Part shown: piece after piece, positions 3,312-64,000 of the stretch
How the letters are laid out: every line of letters begins with the position of its first letter
How positions within the stretch are numbered: the stretch's first letter is position 1
Origin: Bacteroidota bacterium
Lineage (GTDB): Bacteria > Bacteroidota > Bacteroidia > Palsa-965
Assembly: GCA_013298545.1 (NCBI GenBank)
Contig: JAAFIA010000006.1
Location: 1 to 64,000 of the forward strand
DNA: 64,000 bases
Reading direction: 5' to 3'
Position numbers and translations under genes: made by a program
The notes under the pieces: generated by a model
Database searches by the model: none
Seen by the model: the letters and a program-made list of their open reading frames with translations, nothing else
What the model was told of the DNA's origin: nothing

Positions 3312-4178
3312 TCAGTTTCCGTCGCCGTCTGTTGAAGCGGGCTGCTGTTGCGGGGCAGGCTCTTGCTTGGCACCATCTTCAATCACTTCGTCTTTATTCT
3401 CAATGCGTTTTCCTTCTTCGGCATCTTTCGCTTTTTTCTCTGCTGCTGCTTTTTCCGCAGCTGCTTCGTACATGGTTTGTTTTTGGGTTTGTCCGGTGTA
3501 AAAGCTTTTCGTAGTAATGATGATAATACCACCAGAAACATCGCCGTAAGAAGCTGGAATACCGCCAGACAAAATGCTCACCCGATCAATCGCCATGCCT
3601 GTTACATTCAAATTTCCGTAGAGTGCTTCGCCATCGACAAAAATTTTAGATGCCCCTTCGCGTGAGCCACGCATAACGAGTTGTCCGCCTTTGCCTTCGC
3701 TCACTTGTGAGTTGAAACCCGTAACCATACCCACAACATCGCCTTTAGCAGTAGCTACATTTTTAATGAGTTGCGGGTCGATGTTTTGAATGGTAGAGAA
3801 GTTTTTATCTACTGGTGAACGGTCGGCTTCAATCACAACAACATCGGAATCAGATGCCGCAACAATCATATCAAAATTGGCATACGCGGTTTGAGCCGCA
3901 TTAACTACGATATTTTTTTTGGTGTAGGCTTTGTAACCGATGTAACGCGCTTCTACGTCGTAATTTCCGGCAGGAAGACTACGGAAGTAAAAATTGCCGT
4001 CGAGGTTGGTAGCGCCGCCAGTAGTTGGTCCACCAGCGATGATGCGCACAATAGCGCCTGGAATGGGTTGTTTCTTTTCGTCGAGTACAGTAACTTTTAA
4101 ATCGCCGTTTGATTGGGCAAAACTTTGAAATCCGCAAAGGATAGCAGTAAGTGCGAAGAGGTTGCGTAAGGTTTTCAT
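3312..4178 (-). CDS. CarboxypepD_reg-like plus TonB plug-like domain protein lacking a beta-barrel
   Basis: 288 aa; signal peptide, VTVLDEKKQPIPGAIVRI...LPAGNYDVEARYIGY, plug-like VMRGSREGASKIFVDGE..SYGDVSGGIIIITTK, then charged/low-complexity tail. Confidence 0.8.
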   Translation of the reverse strand: MKTLRNLFALTAILCGFQSFAQSNGDLKVTVLDEKKQPIPGAIVRIIAGGPTTGGATNLDGNFYFRSLPAGNYDVEARYIGYKAYTKKNIVVNAAQTAYANFDMIVAASDSDVVVIEADRSPVDKNFSTIQNIDPQLIKNVATAKGDVVGMVTGFNSQVSEGKGGQLVMRGSREGASKIFVDGEALYGNLNVTGMAIDRVSILSGGIPASYGDVSGGIIIITTKSFYTGQTQKQTMYEAAAEKAAAEKKAKDAEEGKRIENKDEVIEDGAKQEPAPQQQPASTDGDGN

Positions 4179-4330
4179 AACTTATGTTTATTGAAGGTTA
4201 GTAATCTGCTTCTGTTGTGGATAAAACGCATGGCGCTGGGGGATTCCACACGGAAATGTATTTTTTCTCAAAAGCGGTTGATTTGGGGGGCGGGGTGGTT
4301 GATTTGCGTTGATAAGTGGCTTTTAAAATC

Positions 4331-4511
4331 AAGTTCCAGTTTCCAAGTTCCAGTTTCCAAGTTCCAAGTTCCAGTTTCCAAGTTCCAAGTTCCAGTTTCC
4401 AAGTTGCAGTTTCCAAGTTGCAGTTTCCAAGTTCCAAGATCCAGTTTCCAAGTTGCAAGTTCCAGTTTCCACGTTCCAGTTTCCACGTTTCATGCTCCAG
4501 TTTCTAAATCC
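4331..4511. repeat. Heptamer tandem array (AAGTTCC/AGTTTCC)
   Basis: About 25 consecutive 7-nt units; reverse-oriented copies at about 4567-4595. Confidence 0.9.
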
Positions 4512-4577
4512 TCAAAAGCATGATGCTGTTGTTTCTTAAGAGTGGGAATAGCGATCTTTTATTTTTGGAATTTGGAG

Positions 4578-4610
4578 TTTGGAAACTGGAAACTTTTCTG
4601 TGTACTTTTG
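4578..4610 (+). promoter_or_regulatory. Bacteroidota-type promoter for prfB
   Basis: TTTG 4578-4581, 21-nt spacer, TACTTTTG 4603-4610, 5 nt before ATG 4616. Confidence 0.6.
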
Positions 4611-4615
4611 CGCCC

Positions 4616-5732
4616 ATGATTACAATAGACCACATCAAGGAATTAGTGGATCGCAAGGATGCGTTGAGGAGGCATCTTTGACGTTGACGGGAAACTGAAA
4701 CGCATTGCCGAAGAAGAGGCAAAATCGCAAGCGCCCGGATTCTGGGACGATCCGAAAGCAGCCGAAGTGTTGCTGAAAGAAATCAAAAAGAAAAAAAACT
4801 GGACAGATGCCTTTGCTTCGCTTGAAGCAAGTGTTGATGACCTGCATGTGATTTACGAATTTTTCAAGGCTGGCGAAGCTTCTGAAGCAGATCTCGAAAC
4901 GCAATTTGCCGAATCGGTTAAGAAAATCGAGGATCTGGAGTTCCGCAACATGTTGAGCGGTAAAGAAGACCATTTGGCAGCCGTACTCACCATCAACGCT
5001 GGTGCTGGCGGCACAGAAAGTCAAGATTGGGCCGATATGATGATGCGGATGTACATCATGTGGGGCGAACAAAACGGATTTAAAGTACGCGAGGCCGATT
5101 TGCAACAGGGCGAAACCGCCGGTATTAAATCGTGCACGTTGGAATTTGAAGGCGAAAATGCGTTTGGCTATCTCAAAGGCGAGAATGGTGTTCACCGTTT
5201 AGTCCGTATTTCACCTTTCGATTCAAATGCGCGCCGCCACACTTCTTTTTCTTCAGTATATGTGTATCCGTTGATTGATGATACGATTGAGATTGAAGTC
5301 AATCCGTCGGAATGCGAATGGGAAACATTTCGTTCGGGCGGTGCAGGTGGACAAAACGTAAACAAAGTAGAAACTGCTGTTCGCTTGTACCACAAGCCTT
5401 CGGGCATTGTGATTAAAAATCAGGAATCGCGTTCGCAGCACGACAACCGTGAAAATGCGTTGCGTTTGTTGAAATCGCAATTGTATGAATTGGAAATGCG
5501 CAAACGCATGGAGTCGATGAATGCAATCAACAGCACAAAGAAAAAAATTGAGTGGGGTTCGCAAATTCGCAATTATGTTTTGCATCCGTACAAAATGGTA
5601 AAAGACTTGCGTACCGATTATGAAACGTCAAACGCGCAAGGTGTGCTCGATGGCGACTTAAATCCATTCATCAAAGCGTATTTGATGGAATATGGCGCGA
5701 GTTGGAATACCGAATTGATTGGCGATAAATAA
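4616..5732 (+). CDS. prfB: Peptide chain release factor 2, expressed via programmed +1 frameshift at about 4676-4682
   Basis: [21 protein letters not shown] then in-frame TGA (4679-4681); +1 shift gives [29 protein letters not shown] continuing into the 4767-5732 [20 protein letters not shown] (GGQ motif). Confidence 0.96.
4667..4682 (+). promoter_or_regulatory. prfB programmed frameshift signal
   Basis: AGGAGG CAT CTT TGA C: internal Shine-Dalgarno-like AGGAGG, CTT slip codon, TGA followed by C. Confidence 0.95.
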
Positions 5733-5740
5733 ACTGTGCG

Positions 5741-6103
5741 ATGACAAAGCAAAAACTTCCGGTCGTGATTTGGCACAATGCGCGCTGCTCAACTAGCCGC
5801 ACAGCCATGTGTGTGTTGGATGACCTGAAAGCGACTGCAACGGTTGTGAATTATTTAGAAGATGAAATTACGGAAGCAATGCTCGAAGATTTGTTGGCGA
5901 AGTTGGGCATTCCGGCGTTTGGTCTGGTACGAACAAAAGAACCTTTGTACAAGGAAAAATATGCGCACCGGAAATTGTCGGAGAAACAATGGATTAAAGT
6001 ATTGATTAAGCATCCGGTTTTGATTGAGCGTCCGGTGGTGGTGAAAGGGAATAAGGCGGTGATTGGGCGACCGATGGAACGGGTGGTGGAGTTATTGAAG
6101 TAA
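5741..6103 (+). CDS. ArsC/Spx family protein (arsenate reductase-like)
   Basis: IWHNARCSTSRTAMCVL...NYLEDEITEAMLEDLLAKLG...HPVLIERPVVVKGNKAVIGRP. Confidence 0.85.
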   Translation: MTKQKLPVVIWHNARCSTSRTAMCVLDDLKATATVVNYLEDEITEAMLEDLLAKLGIPAFGLVRTKEPLYKEKYAHRKLSEKQWIKVLIKHPVLIERPVVVKGNKAVIGRPMERVVELLK

Positions 6104-6128: not shown

Positions 6129-7349
6129 ATGAGTGAAAAGCAGCCTTTGTATTTGAAGCATGTTGTATTGGAGGACTATCGTTCTATCCAAAAAGTCGAT
6201 ATTGATTTTATGCCCGGATTGAATATTATCATTGGAGAAAATGGTAGTGGAAAGACTAATTTTTTGGATTTGTTGCGCTCTGCTATGTCAAATTCTTTTA
6301 CTAATGGTAAATCATTTGCAAGATGTCAATTAACGTTCAAAGGAAAAGCTGAATACACGTTTGACTCTGCACCAAATGATAATTTTGTTGCAGATTCTGA
6401 TGAAGGGCTAATGAATAATTATAAGTTGAATAGAATTATCAAAATCAAAACACCGCATAATGATGGCGGATTTGATAACGAAAGCAATATTTTCGATTTG
6501 CTTGACCATGTTTATGATCATGAAGGGAGATATTTAAAATCTGAGATCATTCGGCATGGACTTCCTATTCATTTACCAATATGGAATAATCCATTAAATG
6601 GCGAATTTCGTCTGAAGACGAGTTGGGATAAATCGCAAGTTGTGCTTCGTACTCGAAGTCTGAGTAGTGCATTTTCTTCGTCTATTCATAGTGGTGCAGA
6701 CAATAGTTCATTTATCAGAAAGCTTGCTCTAGAAATTGGGCAAAAAAGGGCTGAACCTATTGACACTACAAAAGATGTTGAAACTCATTTTCGGAAAAGT
6801 CTAAATAACATCTGTGAAATACTTCTTAATGATCTACGACTAATTACTAAAATTGAAGACATTCGATGCAGTAGCTTATTTAGTTTAGAATTTGACTCTG
6901 AACAGAAAGTTATTTCATTTAGAAACTTTTTCTGTGAGTTTAAGTTTGATGGTAAATGGCTAAATTTCGATCAACTTTCTGATGGGACGAAGCGTATTAT
7001 CTATCTAGTTTCGGAAACCATTAATTATCATGCTTTCATTTCTTCAGAAATTCTTTTTCTCGAAGAACCCGAACTCGGAATCCACCCTCATCAGTTGCAT
7101 AAATTAATGACATTTCTAAAAGAAGAGTCAGAAGACAAACAGATTATTCTCACAACGCATTCTCCGCAAGTATTGAATGTATTAGGCGTTGACGAACTTG
7201 ATCGGGTGCTTATTTGTGAATACGATGCCGAAAAAGGAACACAACTCCGCCACATGACTGATAAAGAGAAAAAAGAAGCGGCTACCTATATGGAAGAAGT
7301 TGGTTTTTTTAGTGATTATTGGTTACACGCAGACTTCAATAGAATATGA
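6129..7349 (+). CDS. AAA/ABC-type ATPase, RecF/OLD-like (AAA_15/AAA_21-like)
   Basis: Walker A GENGSGKTN, signature QLSDGTKRI, Walker B ILFLEEPELGIHP, H-loop TTHSPQVL. Confidence 0.88.
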   Translation: MSEKQPLYLKHVVLEDYRSIQKVDIDFMPGLNIIIGENGSGKTNFLDLLRSAMSNSFTNGKSFARCQLTFKGKAEYTFDSAPNDNFVADSDEGLMNNYKLNRIIKIKTPHNDGGFDNESNIFDLLDHVYDHEGRYLKSEIIRHGLPIHLPIWNNPLNGEFRLKTSWDKSQVVLRTRSLSSAFSSSIHSGADNSSFIRKLALEIGQKRAEPIDTTKDVETHFRKSLNNICEILLNDLRLITKIEDIRCSSLFSLEFDSEQKVISFRNFFCEFKFDGKWLNFDQLSDGTKRIIYLVSETINYHAFISSEILFLEEPELGIHPHQLHKLMTFLKEESEDKQIILTTHSPQVLNVLGVDELDRVLICEYDAEKGTQLRHMTDKEKKEAATYMEEVGFFSDYWLHADFNRI

Positions 7350-7353
7350 GCAG

Positions 7354-7956
7354 ATGAAAAAAGTACTGCTTTTTGGAGAAGCCCCAAATGACACTTCAAG
7401 CATTGCCTCTCTCATGCGATTGCGCTATGAGGAAGATGCTTCATTTGGTAATTTAGTTGAAGATATTAATCAAGAGCAGATTAAAAATGAATTTAAAGGT
7501 GGTGTGCTTTTAACAAAAGATAAGCCCTTGAAATCAAAATTACGCAGGTTAATTAACACGAGTTATCGCATAAAAAAACCCGACTTAATTATTTTTGTCA
7601 TCGACTTGGATTCGCTTGAAAATGATCGCGAAAAAAAAATTGGGCGACAAGAAATTTTCAATCGCTACAATACACAAGTTGAGGATAAAGGGATTTTATT
7701 GCTCAATATTTTTGAGTTAGAAGCATTGCTTTTAGCGGATATAAAAGTGGTGAATGACTTCTACAAAATTGAAATGACATACGACGGAGATCCAATGCTG
7801 CAAGTCGATCCCAAGGGCCACATTAAAAAATACTGCAAATACGAAGAGGCACATAGCCCCGAATTATTTAGTAAACTGAACTTTGACAACGTGATCAAAG
7901 TTCGCTACTTCCAAAAATTCATCACCGAGTTTGAACAAAAACTAAAATCAGCATAA
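7354..7956 (+). CDS. TOPRIM-fold DUF4276-like protein, partner of the upstream ATPase
   Basis: ATG 7354, 4 nt after the upstream stop; [12 protein letters not shown] (TOPRIM Glu motif), [10 protein letters not shown] (DxD), [14 protein letters not shown] (DUF4276-like E-x-E-A-x-L-L-A-D). Confidence 0.65.
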
Positions 7957-7966
7957 CATAAAAATC

Positions 7967-9367
7967 ATGTCAACTTACCGCATCGAAAAAGACACCATGG
8001 GCGAGGTACAAGTTCCCGCCGACAAATACTGGGGCGCGCAAACCGAACGTTCGCGCAACAATTTTCGCATTGGGCCAGAAGCGTCTATGCCGAAAGAAAT
8101 TATTTATGCGTTTGCATACCTCAAAAAAGCCGCCGCACACGCCAACCACGACCTCGGCGTGCTCCCCGCCGACAAGCGCGATTTAATCTCGCAAGTCTGC
8201 GACGAAATTCTTGCCGGTAAACTCGACGATCAATTTCCTCTCGTGATTTGGCAAACAGGCTCTGGTACACAGAGCAACATGAATGCCAACGAAGTTATTG
8301 CCTACCGCGCACACGTCATTTCTGGAGGCCAACTCACCGACGAGAAAAAAGTATTGAATCCGAATGATGATGTCAACAAATCGCAATCATCAAACGATAC
8401 TTATCCAACAGCGATGCACATTGCAGCATACAAACTGGCGGTAGAAACAACCTTGCCGAGCATGCAACAACTCCGCGATGCGCTTGCCAGAAAATCGGAT
8501 GCGTTTCAGAATATCGTTAAAACAGGTCGTACCCATTTTATGGATGCAACGCCACTTACATTTGGACAAGTGTTTGGTGGCTACGTGCAACAACTTGACA
8601 ACAGCATGCGCGCCATCAAAAACGCGTTGGAAATGGTTCGCGAATTGGCACTTGGTGGAACAGCCGTTGGTACAGGATTGAATACGCCTGCTGGATATGA
8701 TGTGCTAGTAGCCCAAAAAATTGCAGAATTTACGGGCCTTCCTTTTGTTACTGCACCAAATAAATTTGAAGCACTCGCCGCGCATGATGCGATGGTTGAA
8801 CTTTCTGGTGCCTTGCGCCGCGCGGCTGTTTCGTTGATGAAAATTGCCAACGATATTCGGATGCTCAGTTCTGGCCCACGCTCCGGCATTGGCGAATTGA
8901 TTATTCCTGACAACGAACCAGGCTCTTCCATCATGCCTGGAAAAGTAAATCCAACACAACCCGAAGCCTTAACAATGGTTTGCGCGCAAGTGATGGGCAA
9001 CGATGTGGCTGTTGGAATTGGCGGATCAAACGGTCATTTTGAATTGAATGTGTTCAAACCGCTTATTGCTTATAACGTTTTGCAAAGCGCGCGTTTGCTC
9101 GGCGATGCGTGTGTTTCGTTTACACTCAAATGTGCCAATGGCATTGAGCCAAACAACGCTATCATTCAACGCCACCTCGAAAACTCATTGATGTTGGTTA
9201 CCGCCCTCAATCCACATATTGGTTATTACAAATCGGCGGAGATTGCGAAGAAAGCGCATAAAGAAGGAACAACACTCAAACAAGCGGCCCTTGCCTTGAA
9301 TTATGTAACGGCTGAAGAATTTGATGCGTGGGTTCGTCCAGAAGATATGACGGGATCGTTGAAATAA
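7967..9367 (+). CDS. fumC: Class II fumarate hydratase
   Basis: 466 aa; [42 protein letters not shown] signature. Confidence 0.97.
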
Positions 9368-61007: not shown

Positions 61008-61745
61008 CTAAAGCCATTCAAATCCTGCTATTTTAATGGTATCACAACCTGTTTTTTCAATCAAACTTGATCTTATCTCCTTCTGAACATTCACTTTCAG
61101 ATCATCGTATAAAGTACCCATTGCGCCCAATTCATTAGGCCCTTTTGAATAGCTTAAAGTGGGAGTCGATTGGGCCAAAAAACGATAGGAGCATACTATT
61201 TTTTTTGTTTCATAATTGACGATTGACAATCTTGCTAAAACATATCCCGCTTCAAACTCATTAGTATTTGCTTGAATCTCAGGTAGTGCTGAAGATATAG
61301 ACTGAACAAAAACAACATAAGGACTATTGATTTTTTTATTGTACTCAAGCCATTGACCTAAATAAGACATAGAAAAAAGATCATCGCCATAGTAACCTGG
61401 GGAATTGAATTTATCAGCAGCATATCCTTCAATCAAACGATCCAATGCATCAACGGGAGTCGTCGAATCCTTTTTGGGTTCAATGATTTTATACAATGTA
61501 AATGACAGTTTCTTTGGGTGTAAGTCTTTTATTTCGCAGATGCTATCATTCCATCCCGTAGTGTCCTTCTTAAGTAATTCGAGCAATTCCATAATTGTAA
61601 CTTTATGTTCAAAAGCTATTTTCGAATACATTGAATCTGCAGCTAATTGCTTTTTACCAAGAGCCTCATCCTCTGCTGTGTATGAATTACAGGCACTAAA
61701 AAAAATAAGGAGAAAAGGGATAGTTGAGTATAAAATACGTTTCAT
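61008..61745 (-). CDS. Predicted lipoprotein, tandem family member 1
   Basis: LIFFSACNSY lipobox; EAGYVLARLSIVNYETKKIVCSYRFLAQSTPTLSYS; TGCDTIKIAGFEWL. Confidence 0.8.
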   Translation of the reverse strand: MKRILYSTIPFLLIFFSACNSYTAEDEALGKKQLAADSMYSKIAFEHKVTIMELLELLKKDTTGWNDSICEIKDLHPKKLSFTLYKIIEPKKDSTTPVDALDRLIEGYAADKFNSPGYYGDDLFSMSYLGQWLEYNKKINSPYVVFVQSISSALPEIQANTNEFEAGYVLARLSIVNYETKKIVCSYRFLAQSTPTLSYSKGPNELGAMGTLYDDLKVNVQKEIRSSLIEKTGCDTIKIAGFEWL

Positions 61746-61891
61746 GTAATCTTTGGGTTTTTAAGATTTATAAAGATAACAAAATAGCATCAAACATAAT
61801 TTGGTGGATGAAAGTTTGTTGGAGAATTTATTTTAAAAGTAGTTGATAGATCAAATAAAAAAATTCTTCACTTAGGATGAAGGATTTTTTG

Positions 61892-62653
61892 TTATTGTAG
61901 TCTATTAAATTCATCAAGTCTATCGCATCCGGCAATTTTTATATCCGATACACCTGTTATGGATACAAGTTGAGCGCGGATTTCTTTTCCAATATTAGCA
62001 ATCAAATCCTTTGATAATTTATATTCTGCCCCTTCATAGTAGTTATTACTATTATAAGTATAGCTAACCGTATCGCTCGATTGCGCGTATAGATCAAATG
62101 CACACATTCGCTGGCCTGTCTCATAATTCATAACCAGTGCTCTGCCCGTAAAATATCCTGCCTTAAAACCACCTCTACTTCTGTCCTGTTTGGGCATGGC
62201 CGCATCGTAGGTCTGTATAAAAATGATATAAGGGCTTTTATTATGCTTATTAATATCAACCCATCCTCCTAATTCCCTCAACCCATCAGCCCAAGCTTTA
62301 TTATACCCAATGGTACTTATGTCTCGAATGTTTTGTAACACATCCAATTGGCTAGCCGGATTAGAAACAGAGCCCATGTATTCCGGCTTGCTTTTAAATT
62401 CTAAAATATAATAAACCATAAACGAAAGTTGACTGCGCGAAGAATCACTGATTCGACACAATGTATCATCCCATAATATTGAATCATTTCGCACAAGCTC
62501 TAGCAATGGTTTAATTTTCGCTTTATGTCTTTCAGCCGCAATAACACACATCGAATCAAAAAAATTTTTCTTTTTTACATAATTATCGTGCTCGTCCGAA
62601 GAACAAGAAATAAGAATAATAGCAGCCAAAAGTGTGTAAAGAAAACTTCTCAT
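61892..62653 (-). CDS. Predicted lipoprotein, tandem family member 2
   Basis: ILISCSSDEH lipobox; KAGYFTGRALVMNYETGQRMCAFDLYAQSSDTVSYT; TGVSDIKIAGCDRLDE. Confidence 0.8.
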   Translation of the reverse strand: MRSFLYTLLAAIILISCSSDEHDNYVKKKNFFDSMCVIAAERHKAKIKPLLELVRNDSILWDDTLCRISDSSRSQLSFMVYYILEFKSKPEYMGSVSNPASQLDVLQNIRDISTIGYNKAWADGLRELGGWVDINKHNKSPYIIFIQTYDAAMPKQDRSRGGFKAGYFTGRALVMNYETGQRMCAFDLYAQSSDTVSYTYNSNNYYEGAEYKLSKDLIANIGKEIRAQLVSITGVSDIKIAGCDRLDEFNRLQ

Positions 62654-62682
62654 TGTGGCAAAAGGGTTAACGTATTATGCCT

Positions 62683-63423
62683 TTATTCATACAAACCATC
62701 AAACCCTGCAATCATAATCTCGGGGCAACCTGTTTTAATTTTGATGCGGCTACGAATTTCAGCTTTAATATTCGTCATCATATCTTGTTGCAACTTGTAG
62801 GTTGCGTCTGTGCCATAAGTTCCTCCCGTGCGGTATTCAACCGTTTCGCTCGACTCGGCGAAAATACCAAATGAGCATACGGGCTGTTTCGTTTCATAAT
62901 TCAAAATATAGGCGCGGCCAATAAAATAACCTGCGTCAAACGAAGCTTTGTCTTCGCTCATTTTCGGCATGGCGGAAGCCAATGTTTGAACAAAAATGAT
63001 GTATGGGCTATTGTTCTTCTTGTTGTAACTGACCCAACGTCCCAATTCCGCTCTAGAATAAGTATCATCCGAAATATACCCTGGTGTTGTCAATTCACGC
63101 ATGCTTGACACTTCCAAAATTTTATCGAGTGCATCATCCGTATCGGTGGAATTCGTATCTAGATCAATCATATTAAAAATCGTAAACGAAAGTTTCAGCG
63201 GACTTTTAGTAGTGAAATCGCACACTGTATCCTCCCAAATGGTAGAATCGGTATTAACGAGATCATTGAGTTCCAAAATTAGGGCTTGATGCTCTGTGCC
63301 AATTTTTGAATGGAGTGAATCCTTCTTCGCTTGTTCTTTAAAATAGGCATCTGCTTCGGAATTCGAAGAAGAGCAGGAAGCAAGAAGCAGGAGGACGAAA
63401 CCAGATAGGATTAGGTTTTTCAT
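62683..63423 (-). CDS. Predicted lipoprotein, tandem family member 3
   Basis: LLASCSSSNS lipobox; DAGYFIGRAYILNYETKQPVCSFGIFAESSETVEYR; TGCPEIMIAGFDGLYE. Confidence 0.8.
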   Translation of the reverse strand: MKNLILSGFVLLLLASCSSSNSEADAYFKEQAKKDSLHSKIGTEHQALILELNDLVNTDSTIWEDTVCDFTTKSPLKLSFTIFNMIDLDTNSTDTDDALDKILEVSSMRELTTPGYISDDTYSRAELGRWVSYNKKNNSPYIIFVQTLASAMPKMSEDKASFDAGYFIGRAYILNYETKQPVCSFGIFAESSETVEYRTGGTYGTDATYKLQQDMMTNIKAEIRSRIKIKTGCPEIMIAGFDGLYE

Positions 63424-63441
63424 TGTTGTGGGATTATGATG

Positions 63442-64000
63442 TTAGTATAACGTAATGGCATCAATGCCACGTAAAATAACTTTTGAACAACCTGTCCTCT
63501 TTTTGAGTTCCTCGCGAAGAGTGTTTTCAAAATTATCTTTCATGTCTTTTTCTAATTTCCCTGCGGCATTAGAACCGAGTATTTTTCGTTTTTTAAACTC
63601 GACTGTTTCGCTCGACTCGGCCCAGAAAGGAAATGCACAAATTATTTTTTTGGCATCATAATCAAAGACATAAACCATACCTGTAAAATAACCCGCTTCA
63701 AACGAAGATTCGTCTTTGGCAAGCACGGGCATTTGTGCTTCTAGTTCTTCGATAACGAGCAAATAAGGACTAGCAAGTTCTTTGTTTTTACGAATGCTTT
63801 TTCCAATATCGGATTCGCTAAACGCGAGAGACTCGCTTCCGACAAAGGAATATCCCGTCGTGTTGATCCACGACCATTGCCCAGCATTGGTGTACAAAGA
63901 ATCAGATTCATGAAAAAACAAACGTGATTCGATGACGTTGAAGGCTATGCGTTCTTTTTTTGCTCCGCTCCAATTGCAAAGGGTATCGTAATCGCCAACG
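63442..64000 (-). CDS. Tandem family member 4, 5' end beyond the window
   Basis: EAGYFTGMVYVFDYDAKKIICAFPFWAESSETVEFK; TGCSKVILRGIDAITLY; reading frame continues upstream of the listed TTG as VGDYDTLCNWSGAKKERIAFNVIESRLFFHESD to the window edge. Confidence 0.8.
   Translation of the reverse strand, partial: VGDYDTLCNWSGAKKERIAFNVIESRLFFHESDSLYTNAGQWSWINTTGYSFVGSESLAFSESDIGKSIRKNKELASPYLLVIEELEAQMPVLAKDESSFEAGYFTGMVYVFDYDAKKIICAFPFWAESSETVEFKKRKILGSNAAGKLEKDMKDNFENTLREELKKRTGCSKVILRGIDAITLY

Follow-up and report, generated by a model that had tools for sequence, protein, structure and literature searches.

A divergent HEC-01-like ATPase-DUF4276 gene pair, a probable phage-defence module, within a housekeeping gene run of Bacteroidota

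Between an arsC-like gene and fumC, the 64,000-nt stretch of a Bacteroidota contig analyzed here (JAAFIA010000006.1; hereafter the window) carries an ABC ATPase gene followed by a gene for a small TOPRIM-like protein. We read this pair as a chromosomal, HEC-01-like two-gene immune module of the abortive kind, with phage defence as its probable role (probability about 0.6). Both genes are intact, their ATPase and TOPRIM-type residues are invariant across the family, the two are strictly linked and homologous to the components of HEC-01, their distribution is patchy, and the middle of the ATPase is hypervariable. A defence role is something we infer, since the literature searched contained no phage phenotype for HEC-01 or for the window clade and no defence paper naming HEC-01; nor was a paper naming DUF4276 found there.

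The initial annotation had described an ATPase and a TOPRIM/DUF4276-like protein encoded as a two-gene module with a 4-nt spacer, and an ORF check of the window bears this out, with both frames intact on the same strand (Table 1). Along that strand, prfB is followed after 8 nt by arsC, after 25 nt by the ATPase gene, after 4 nt by the small gene, and after 10 nt by fumC. The run looks like a single transcription unit, and no convincing promoter or terminator was found inside it. The opening codons of prfB lie in a different frame from its main ORF because of a programmed-frameshift site, the in-frame CTTTGA after AGGAGG (AGGAGG...CTTTGAC; window positions 4617-4770) being the classic one of RF2. 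Upstream of prfB, positions 4198-4600 hold short direct repeats with GGAACTTGGAAC-like units. A -7-like element had also been proposed for the pair and did not survive scrutiny: TATCTTAG, upstream of the ATPase gene, is one mismatch from TAnnTTTG, and a one-mismatch match in the 60-nt upstream stretch is at chance level, reached by 43% of shuffles. Among relatives, exact TAnnTTTG occurs in 11 of 36 against 2 expected, mostly 20-30 nt before the start.

Table 1. Coordinates in the window of the gene pair, its flanking genes and its conserved or variable segments
Feature	Coordinates	Strand	Basis or conservation
prfB (release factor 2), flank; ATG 4617; main frame 4767-5732	4617..5732	+	sequence; 83-85% identical in relatives
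arsC/Spx-like gene, upstream flank	5741..6103	+	sequence; G055 homologue is Pfam ArsC
RecF/SMC/OLD-type ABC ATPase, 406 aa	6129..7349	+	sequence, Pfam, PADLOC, AF2 model
Walker A GENGSGKT, residues 36-43	6234..6257	+	I35, G36, N38, G41, K42 invariant 41/41
Hypervariable middle of ATPase, residues 61-235, candidate sensor	6309..6833	+	identity across family
ABC signature LSDGT, residues 283-287	6975..6989	+	D285, G286, R289 invariant 41/41
Walker B and D-loop FLEEPELGIHP, residues 310-320	7056..7088	+	E312, E313, P314, E315, G317, H319, P320 invariant 41/41
H-loop TTHSPQVL, residues 342-349	7152..7175	+	H344, P346, L349 invariant 41/41
Conserved C-terminal tail, ends ...LSDYWLHSDLE-like; candidate partner-docking segment	7257..7346	+	48% mean identity in family; Y387, W398 invariant
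DUF4276/HEC-01B-like, TOPRIM-like putative nuclease, 200 aa, ATG at 7354	7354..7956	+	sequence, Pfam, PADLOC, AF2 model
GE, residues 8-9, end of strand 1, TOPRIM-type glutamate	7375..7380	+	invariant 40/40; strand 2-8 in AF2 model
DLD, residues 84-86, end of strand 3, TOPRIM-type DxD	7603..7611	+	D84, D86 invariant 40/40; strand 78-84 in AF2 model
DUF4276-type motif (10 protein letters not shown), residues 120-129	7711..7740	+	E123 invariant; E121 at least 90%
PK, residues 153-154	7810..7815	+	invariant 40/40
fumC (class II fumarase), downstream flank, begins 10 nt past pair	7967..9367	+	86-92% identical in relatives

The pair is AT-rich, as had been noted from the outset, with a G+C content of 35.1% against 43.0% for the window, a value equally low in only 0.3% of equal-sized stretches. 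The sole other stretch of the window that matches it in AT-richness, at 61008-63921, holds four tandem paralogous genes (~250 aa), at least three of them lipoprotein-like. Low G+C is a trait of the whole family: the pair falls below its own flanks at 40 of 40 testable loci, by a mean of 10 points, which may partly reflect GC-rich housekeeping neighbours. Because every testable locus shows it, low G+C is unfit as evidence of recent insertion, and we rejected that argument. What stands of the inserted cassette first proposed is the accessory nature of the pair, which relatives lack at the corresponding site; the case from composition falls away.

All the ATPase motifs quoted in the initial annotation are present, and the protein belongs to AAA_21/AAA_15 (Pfam AAA_21, 2.6e-25). 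PADLOC models of the defence ATPases HEC-01A (PDLC04175, 04177 and 04178), AriA, AbiLi, MAD3, PtuA and GajA each match 41 of 41 members of the family; the window protein scores 7.7e-28 to HEC-01A, in a match split into two separate stretches, and 7.9e-29 to AriA. The nearest solved structures to its AF2 model (pLDDT 83) are PtuA (Septu, retrons) and AriA (PARIS). Within the family, mean identity over residues 61-235 is just 16%, whereas the cores before and after this segment reach 43% and 50%, and the two ATPases that share the acnA locus have cores that are 77% and 65% identical and a middle at 18%. BLAST finds no similarity among the middles of the fumC-locus ATPases; the middle of the window protein weakly matches two Chryseobacterium copies and that of G007 matches Flavobacterium copies. 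This pattern fits a recognition domain in rapid change or exchange, and fast drift would be another admissible source of the variability.

The second protein likewise has the length, Glu, DxD and DUF4276-like motif ascribed to it, and eight of its residues (G8, E9, D13, D84, D86, E123, P153 and K154) are invariant in 40 of 40 sequences. Pfam DUF4276 matches 39 of 40 family members, at best with 6e-13, and the window protein with 3.6e-5, which is under the curated cut-off. The sole PADLOC match of the window protein is HEC-01B (1.4e-5), and the best HEC-01B model, PDLC04207, matches 28 of 40 members. Of the relatives suggested at the start, profile comparison with hhalign upheld DUF4276: the family aligns full-length with canonical DUF4276/HEC-01B proteins at a probability of 96.8%, the canonical members used scoring up to 3.9e-75 to HEC-01B. 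It did not uphold AriB/DUF4435 (probability 0.1%) or the RloB of AbiL (0.35%); no member has a DUF4435 or RloB match, and solved AriB chains show no similarity to the small protein.

In the TOPRIM arrangement, a Glu closes strand 1 and a DxD closes a later strand. The small protein has this order: in its AF2 model (pLDDT 85.5) the invariant Glu follows strand 1 and the invariant DxD follows strand 3, and these motifs together with the predicted secondary structure make a TOPRIM fold likely. We grade the fold no higher because Foldseek, run against PDB and BFVD, gave no hit with E <= 0.001 and no significant TOPRIM match. AriB of PARIS is a TOPRIM tRNase that loses its activity on E26A mutation (PMC12409363); it offers the best mechanistic precedent, as an analogue rather than a demonstrated relative.

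A survey of 84,980 species genomes with an alignment query found 42 loci; an earlier scan with a single-sequence query had found none. All 42 lie within Bacteroidota, Rhodothermota or Ignavibacteria, the genes are two separate ORFs throughout, and the ATPase is directly upstream of the small gene wherever enough upstream sequence is available. The distribution is rare and patchily inherited, with the pair in 10 of 395 class genomes, 9 of 396 phylum genomes (about 2%) and 4 of 12 genomes of the window's family. Phage, plasmid and viral-contig collections gave no family match. The pair is intact at most of the loci whose context is complete; a truncated or degraded copy adjoins a transposase-like gene in G122, and the copy at L101 is frameshifted.

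Presence and absence of the pair vary among close relatives, a comparison the initial annotation had called for. Four genomes of the window's family (G000, G004, G006 and G007) have the pair between arsC and fumC, and the congener G003 has the two genes with nothing between them, an empty site. In another congener, G001, a 23S_rRNA_IVP family gene fills the gap (L107, 8839-9258). In G002 and G005 prfB is followed by fumC, and in G146, from another family, the pair lies directly before fumC without arsC. The adjacency of arsC and fumC is an old arrangement: a count by hand, a lower bound, places the two genes less than 13 kb apart on the same contig and strand in at least 51 class genomes, the gap being up to 400 nt in 27 and occupied by larger, varied inserts in 24. 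Cargo of the gap in other Bacteroidia (L183-L196) includes TonB-type proteins, repeat proteins and, in L189, possible nucleases. Since the insert of G055 includes a bona fide HEC-01 pair, two different ATPase-DUF4276 clades have settled at the same junction. The fumC-locus ATPases are only 32-40% alike though fumC is 86-92% identical, a similarity no greater than that between random family members (median 35%). One clade for these copies is compatible with a tree test (AU p = 0.42), so that a single origin is not rejected by their sequences.

At other loci, neighbours were identified by eye and partly by Pfam, in an uncontrolled listing. Housekeeping neighbours comprise fumC, purB, acnA, pdhC and nuo; those identified by Pfam are aconitase, a PDH-type E2, a PurL-type FGAR-AT, methylmalonyl-CoA mutase and a TPP-enzyme subunit, and others include purB (three Flavobacterium loci), a fabG/fabH-like pair, Mrp, ileS, glyA, nuoM and recJ. 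No defence island, recombinase or own promoter was found for the window pair, and PADLOC matched 0 of the ten proteins flanking it. Clustering with defence genes or mobile elements was not seen for the family either, with the exception of L071, where an AAA_21 ATPase plus RloB pair (AbiL-like; 3508-5190) is directly upstream of the clade member. Canonical HEC-01 pairs likewise reside at housekeeping genes, one between korA and korB (L151, 4384-9235) and one between nuoH and nuoI (L154, 7515-10871). The window's own genome has two more ATPase and DUF4276 pairs, of this canonical type, L146 (8579-10346, contig C88) and L147 (8155-9989, contig C100), which adjoin rimO and miaB, genes for related methylthiotransferases, and whose small proteins match HEC-01B with 3e-57 and 2e-25, respectively.

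Copies that share a locus have ATPases that are 57-62% (purB), 46% (acnA), 59% (fabG-fabH), 67% (Mrp) and 53% (pdhC) identical, and their closest flanking genes are 75-91% identical. The pair diverges far faster than the neighbouring genes, and the neighbours differ between lineages. A broader reading, tentative and more doubtful than not, is that ATPase-DUF4276 pairs make up a group of immune modules that stand alone inside conserved Bacteroidota housekeeping operons instead of in defence islands (arsC|fumC, korA|korB, nuoH|nuoI, and beside acnA, purB, pdhC, miaB and rimO). Such modules might travel with their flanking genes by homologous recombination, and either the middle (recognition) domain or the entire allele might be replaced at the locus itself.

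We infer complex formation, nuclease activity, trigger, target and phage protection along the following lines. The ATPase would serve as sensor and regulator, its conserved ATP-binding cores joining two or more copies, its hypervariable middle meeting a phage-made or phage-induced trigger, and its conserved C-terminal tail probably holding the small protein. On encountering the trigger, ATP turnover would free or activate the small protein, a putative metal-dependent TOPRIM-type nuclease using E9, D84 and D86, which would then cut host or phage nucleic acid, either tRNA, as AriB does, or DNA. Infection would be stopped, in all likelihood with the loss of the infected cell.

Against a role in defence we count the housekeeping neighbourhood, the lack of phage, plasmid or viral matches, the failure of Foldseek to return a TOPRIM match and the missing profile link to AriB or RloB. 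Among the rival explanations, a toxin-antitoxin-like or selfish addiction cassette deserves the most attention, even if we think it unlikely. Here the ATPase would restrain a toxic nuclease and the pair would hitchhike in essential operons with no action against phages. The tight linkage of the two genes and a position at housekeeping genes, beside or between them, that makes loss costly agree with this idea, as does the Pfam description of AAA_21 as 'putative AbiEii toxin, Type IV TA system'. The gene order and size, with a 406-aa ATPase first, are nevertheless unlike small toxin-antitoxin pairs, and a hypervariable middle suits changing triggers better than plain neutralisation. Because toxin-antitoxin and abortive defence overlap, the two are hard to tell apart by sequence. 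It is distinctly improbable that the pair is a stress or physiology regulator of its host operon, whether by trimming mRNA or tRNA as a nuclease or by assisting repair in the manner of RecF. The same-strand run with prfB, arsC and fumC, with gaps of 25, 4 and 10 nt around the pair, and the frequent adjacency of central-metabolism genes speak for it, but the pair is in ~2% of genomes and its neighbours are far commoner (fumC in 226 of 247), vary among lineages and diverge much more slowly.

Very little weight falls on the idea that the pair is a decaying, now functionless remnant of a mobile element. The truncated copy beside a transposase-like gene and the frameshifted copy are what decay would leave, yet most full-context loci are intact and the catalytic positions are invariant across large divergence. 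The slimmest prospect is a PARIS variant with an AriA-like sensor and an AriB-like tRNase, membership in which is largely refuted: the ATPase does match AriA models and structures, and the order of Glu and DxD is similar, but the AriA match covers a generic AAA_21 span, and the effector lacks profile similarity to DUF4435/AriB or likeness to solved AriB chains.

The most interesting leads are the hypervariable ATPase middle and the residence in core operons. If the pair is defensive, the candidate family HEC-01 gains a divergent clade at the edge of detection by PADLOC models, and immune modules can reside within core operons, outside defence islands, beyond the reach of searches of island neighbourhoods. 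Set between conserved ATPase cores, the hypervariable middle provides a directly testable hypothesis for the site of infection sensing.

Several described systems resemble the pair in part. The initial annotation had suggested an OLD/PARIS-like anti-phage system; kinship to candidate anti-phage proteins holds, whereas identity with PARIS or a fused OLD does not. OLD and GajA of Gabija also couple an ABC ATPase to a TOPRIM, but in one chain, whereas the pair consists of two proteins, with another TOPRIM-like family; with two ORFs at all loci, it is in neither class 1 nor class 2 of OLD. PtuA of Septu and retrons is the top structural match of the ATPase model, yet its partner is the HNH nuclease PtuB, unlike the DUF4276-like partner here. 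AbiL (AbiLi with AbiLii/RloB) shares the layout, in which a small gene of TOPRIM type comes after that of an ATPase, but its effector is RloB, and membership was rejected (hhalign 0.35%, no RloB match). PARIS (AriA with AriB) resembles the pair in its separate ABC ATPase and TOPRIM-type effector and in the AriA-like ATPase model, though PtuA, GajA, AbiLi and MAD3 models or structures match that ATPase too; its effector is DUF4435, without profile similarity to the DUF4276-like protein, and membership was likewise rejected (AriB profile 0.1%).

Where the initial annotation had left the pair without a named system, the candidate system HEC-01A/HEC-01B fits best. HEC-01 (PADLOC 'Hma-embedded candidate 01'), an ATPase, HEC-01A, with a DUF4276 protein, HEC-01B, has its gene order, its ATPase family and probably also its DUF4276 family in common with the pair, and several HECs, including HEC-06, are active according to a 2026 paper (PMC12988326). 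True members score about 1e-134 and 1e-74, against 7.7e-28 and 1.4e-5 for the window pair; canonical members have D-x-[YF] where the window clade has a full DxD, and matches of the window clade are confined to Bacteroidota, Rhodothermota and Ignavibacteria. Taken together, these sequence comparisons suggest that the window pair is probably a divergent sister clade of HEC-01, the closest described system.
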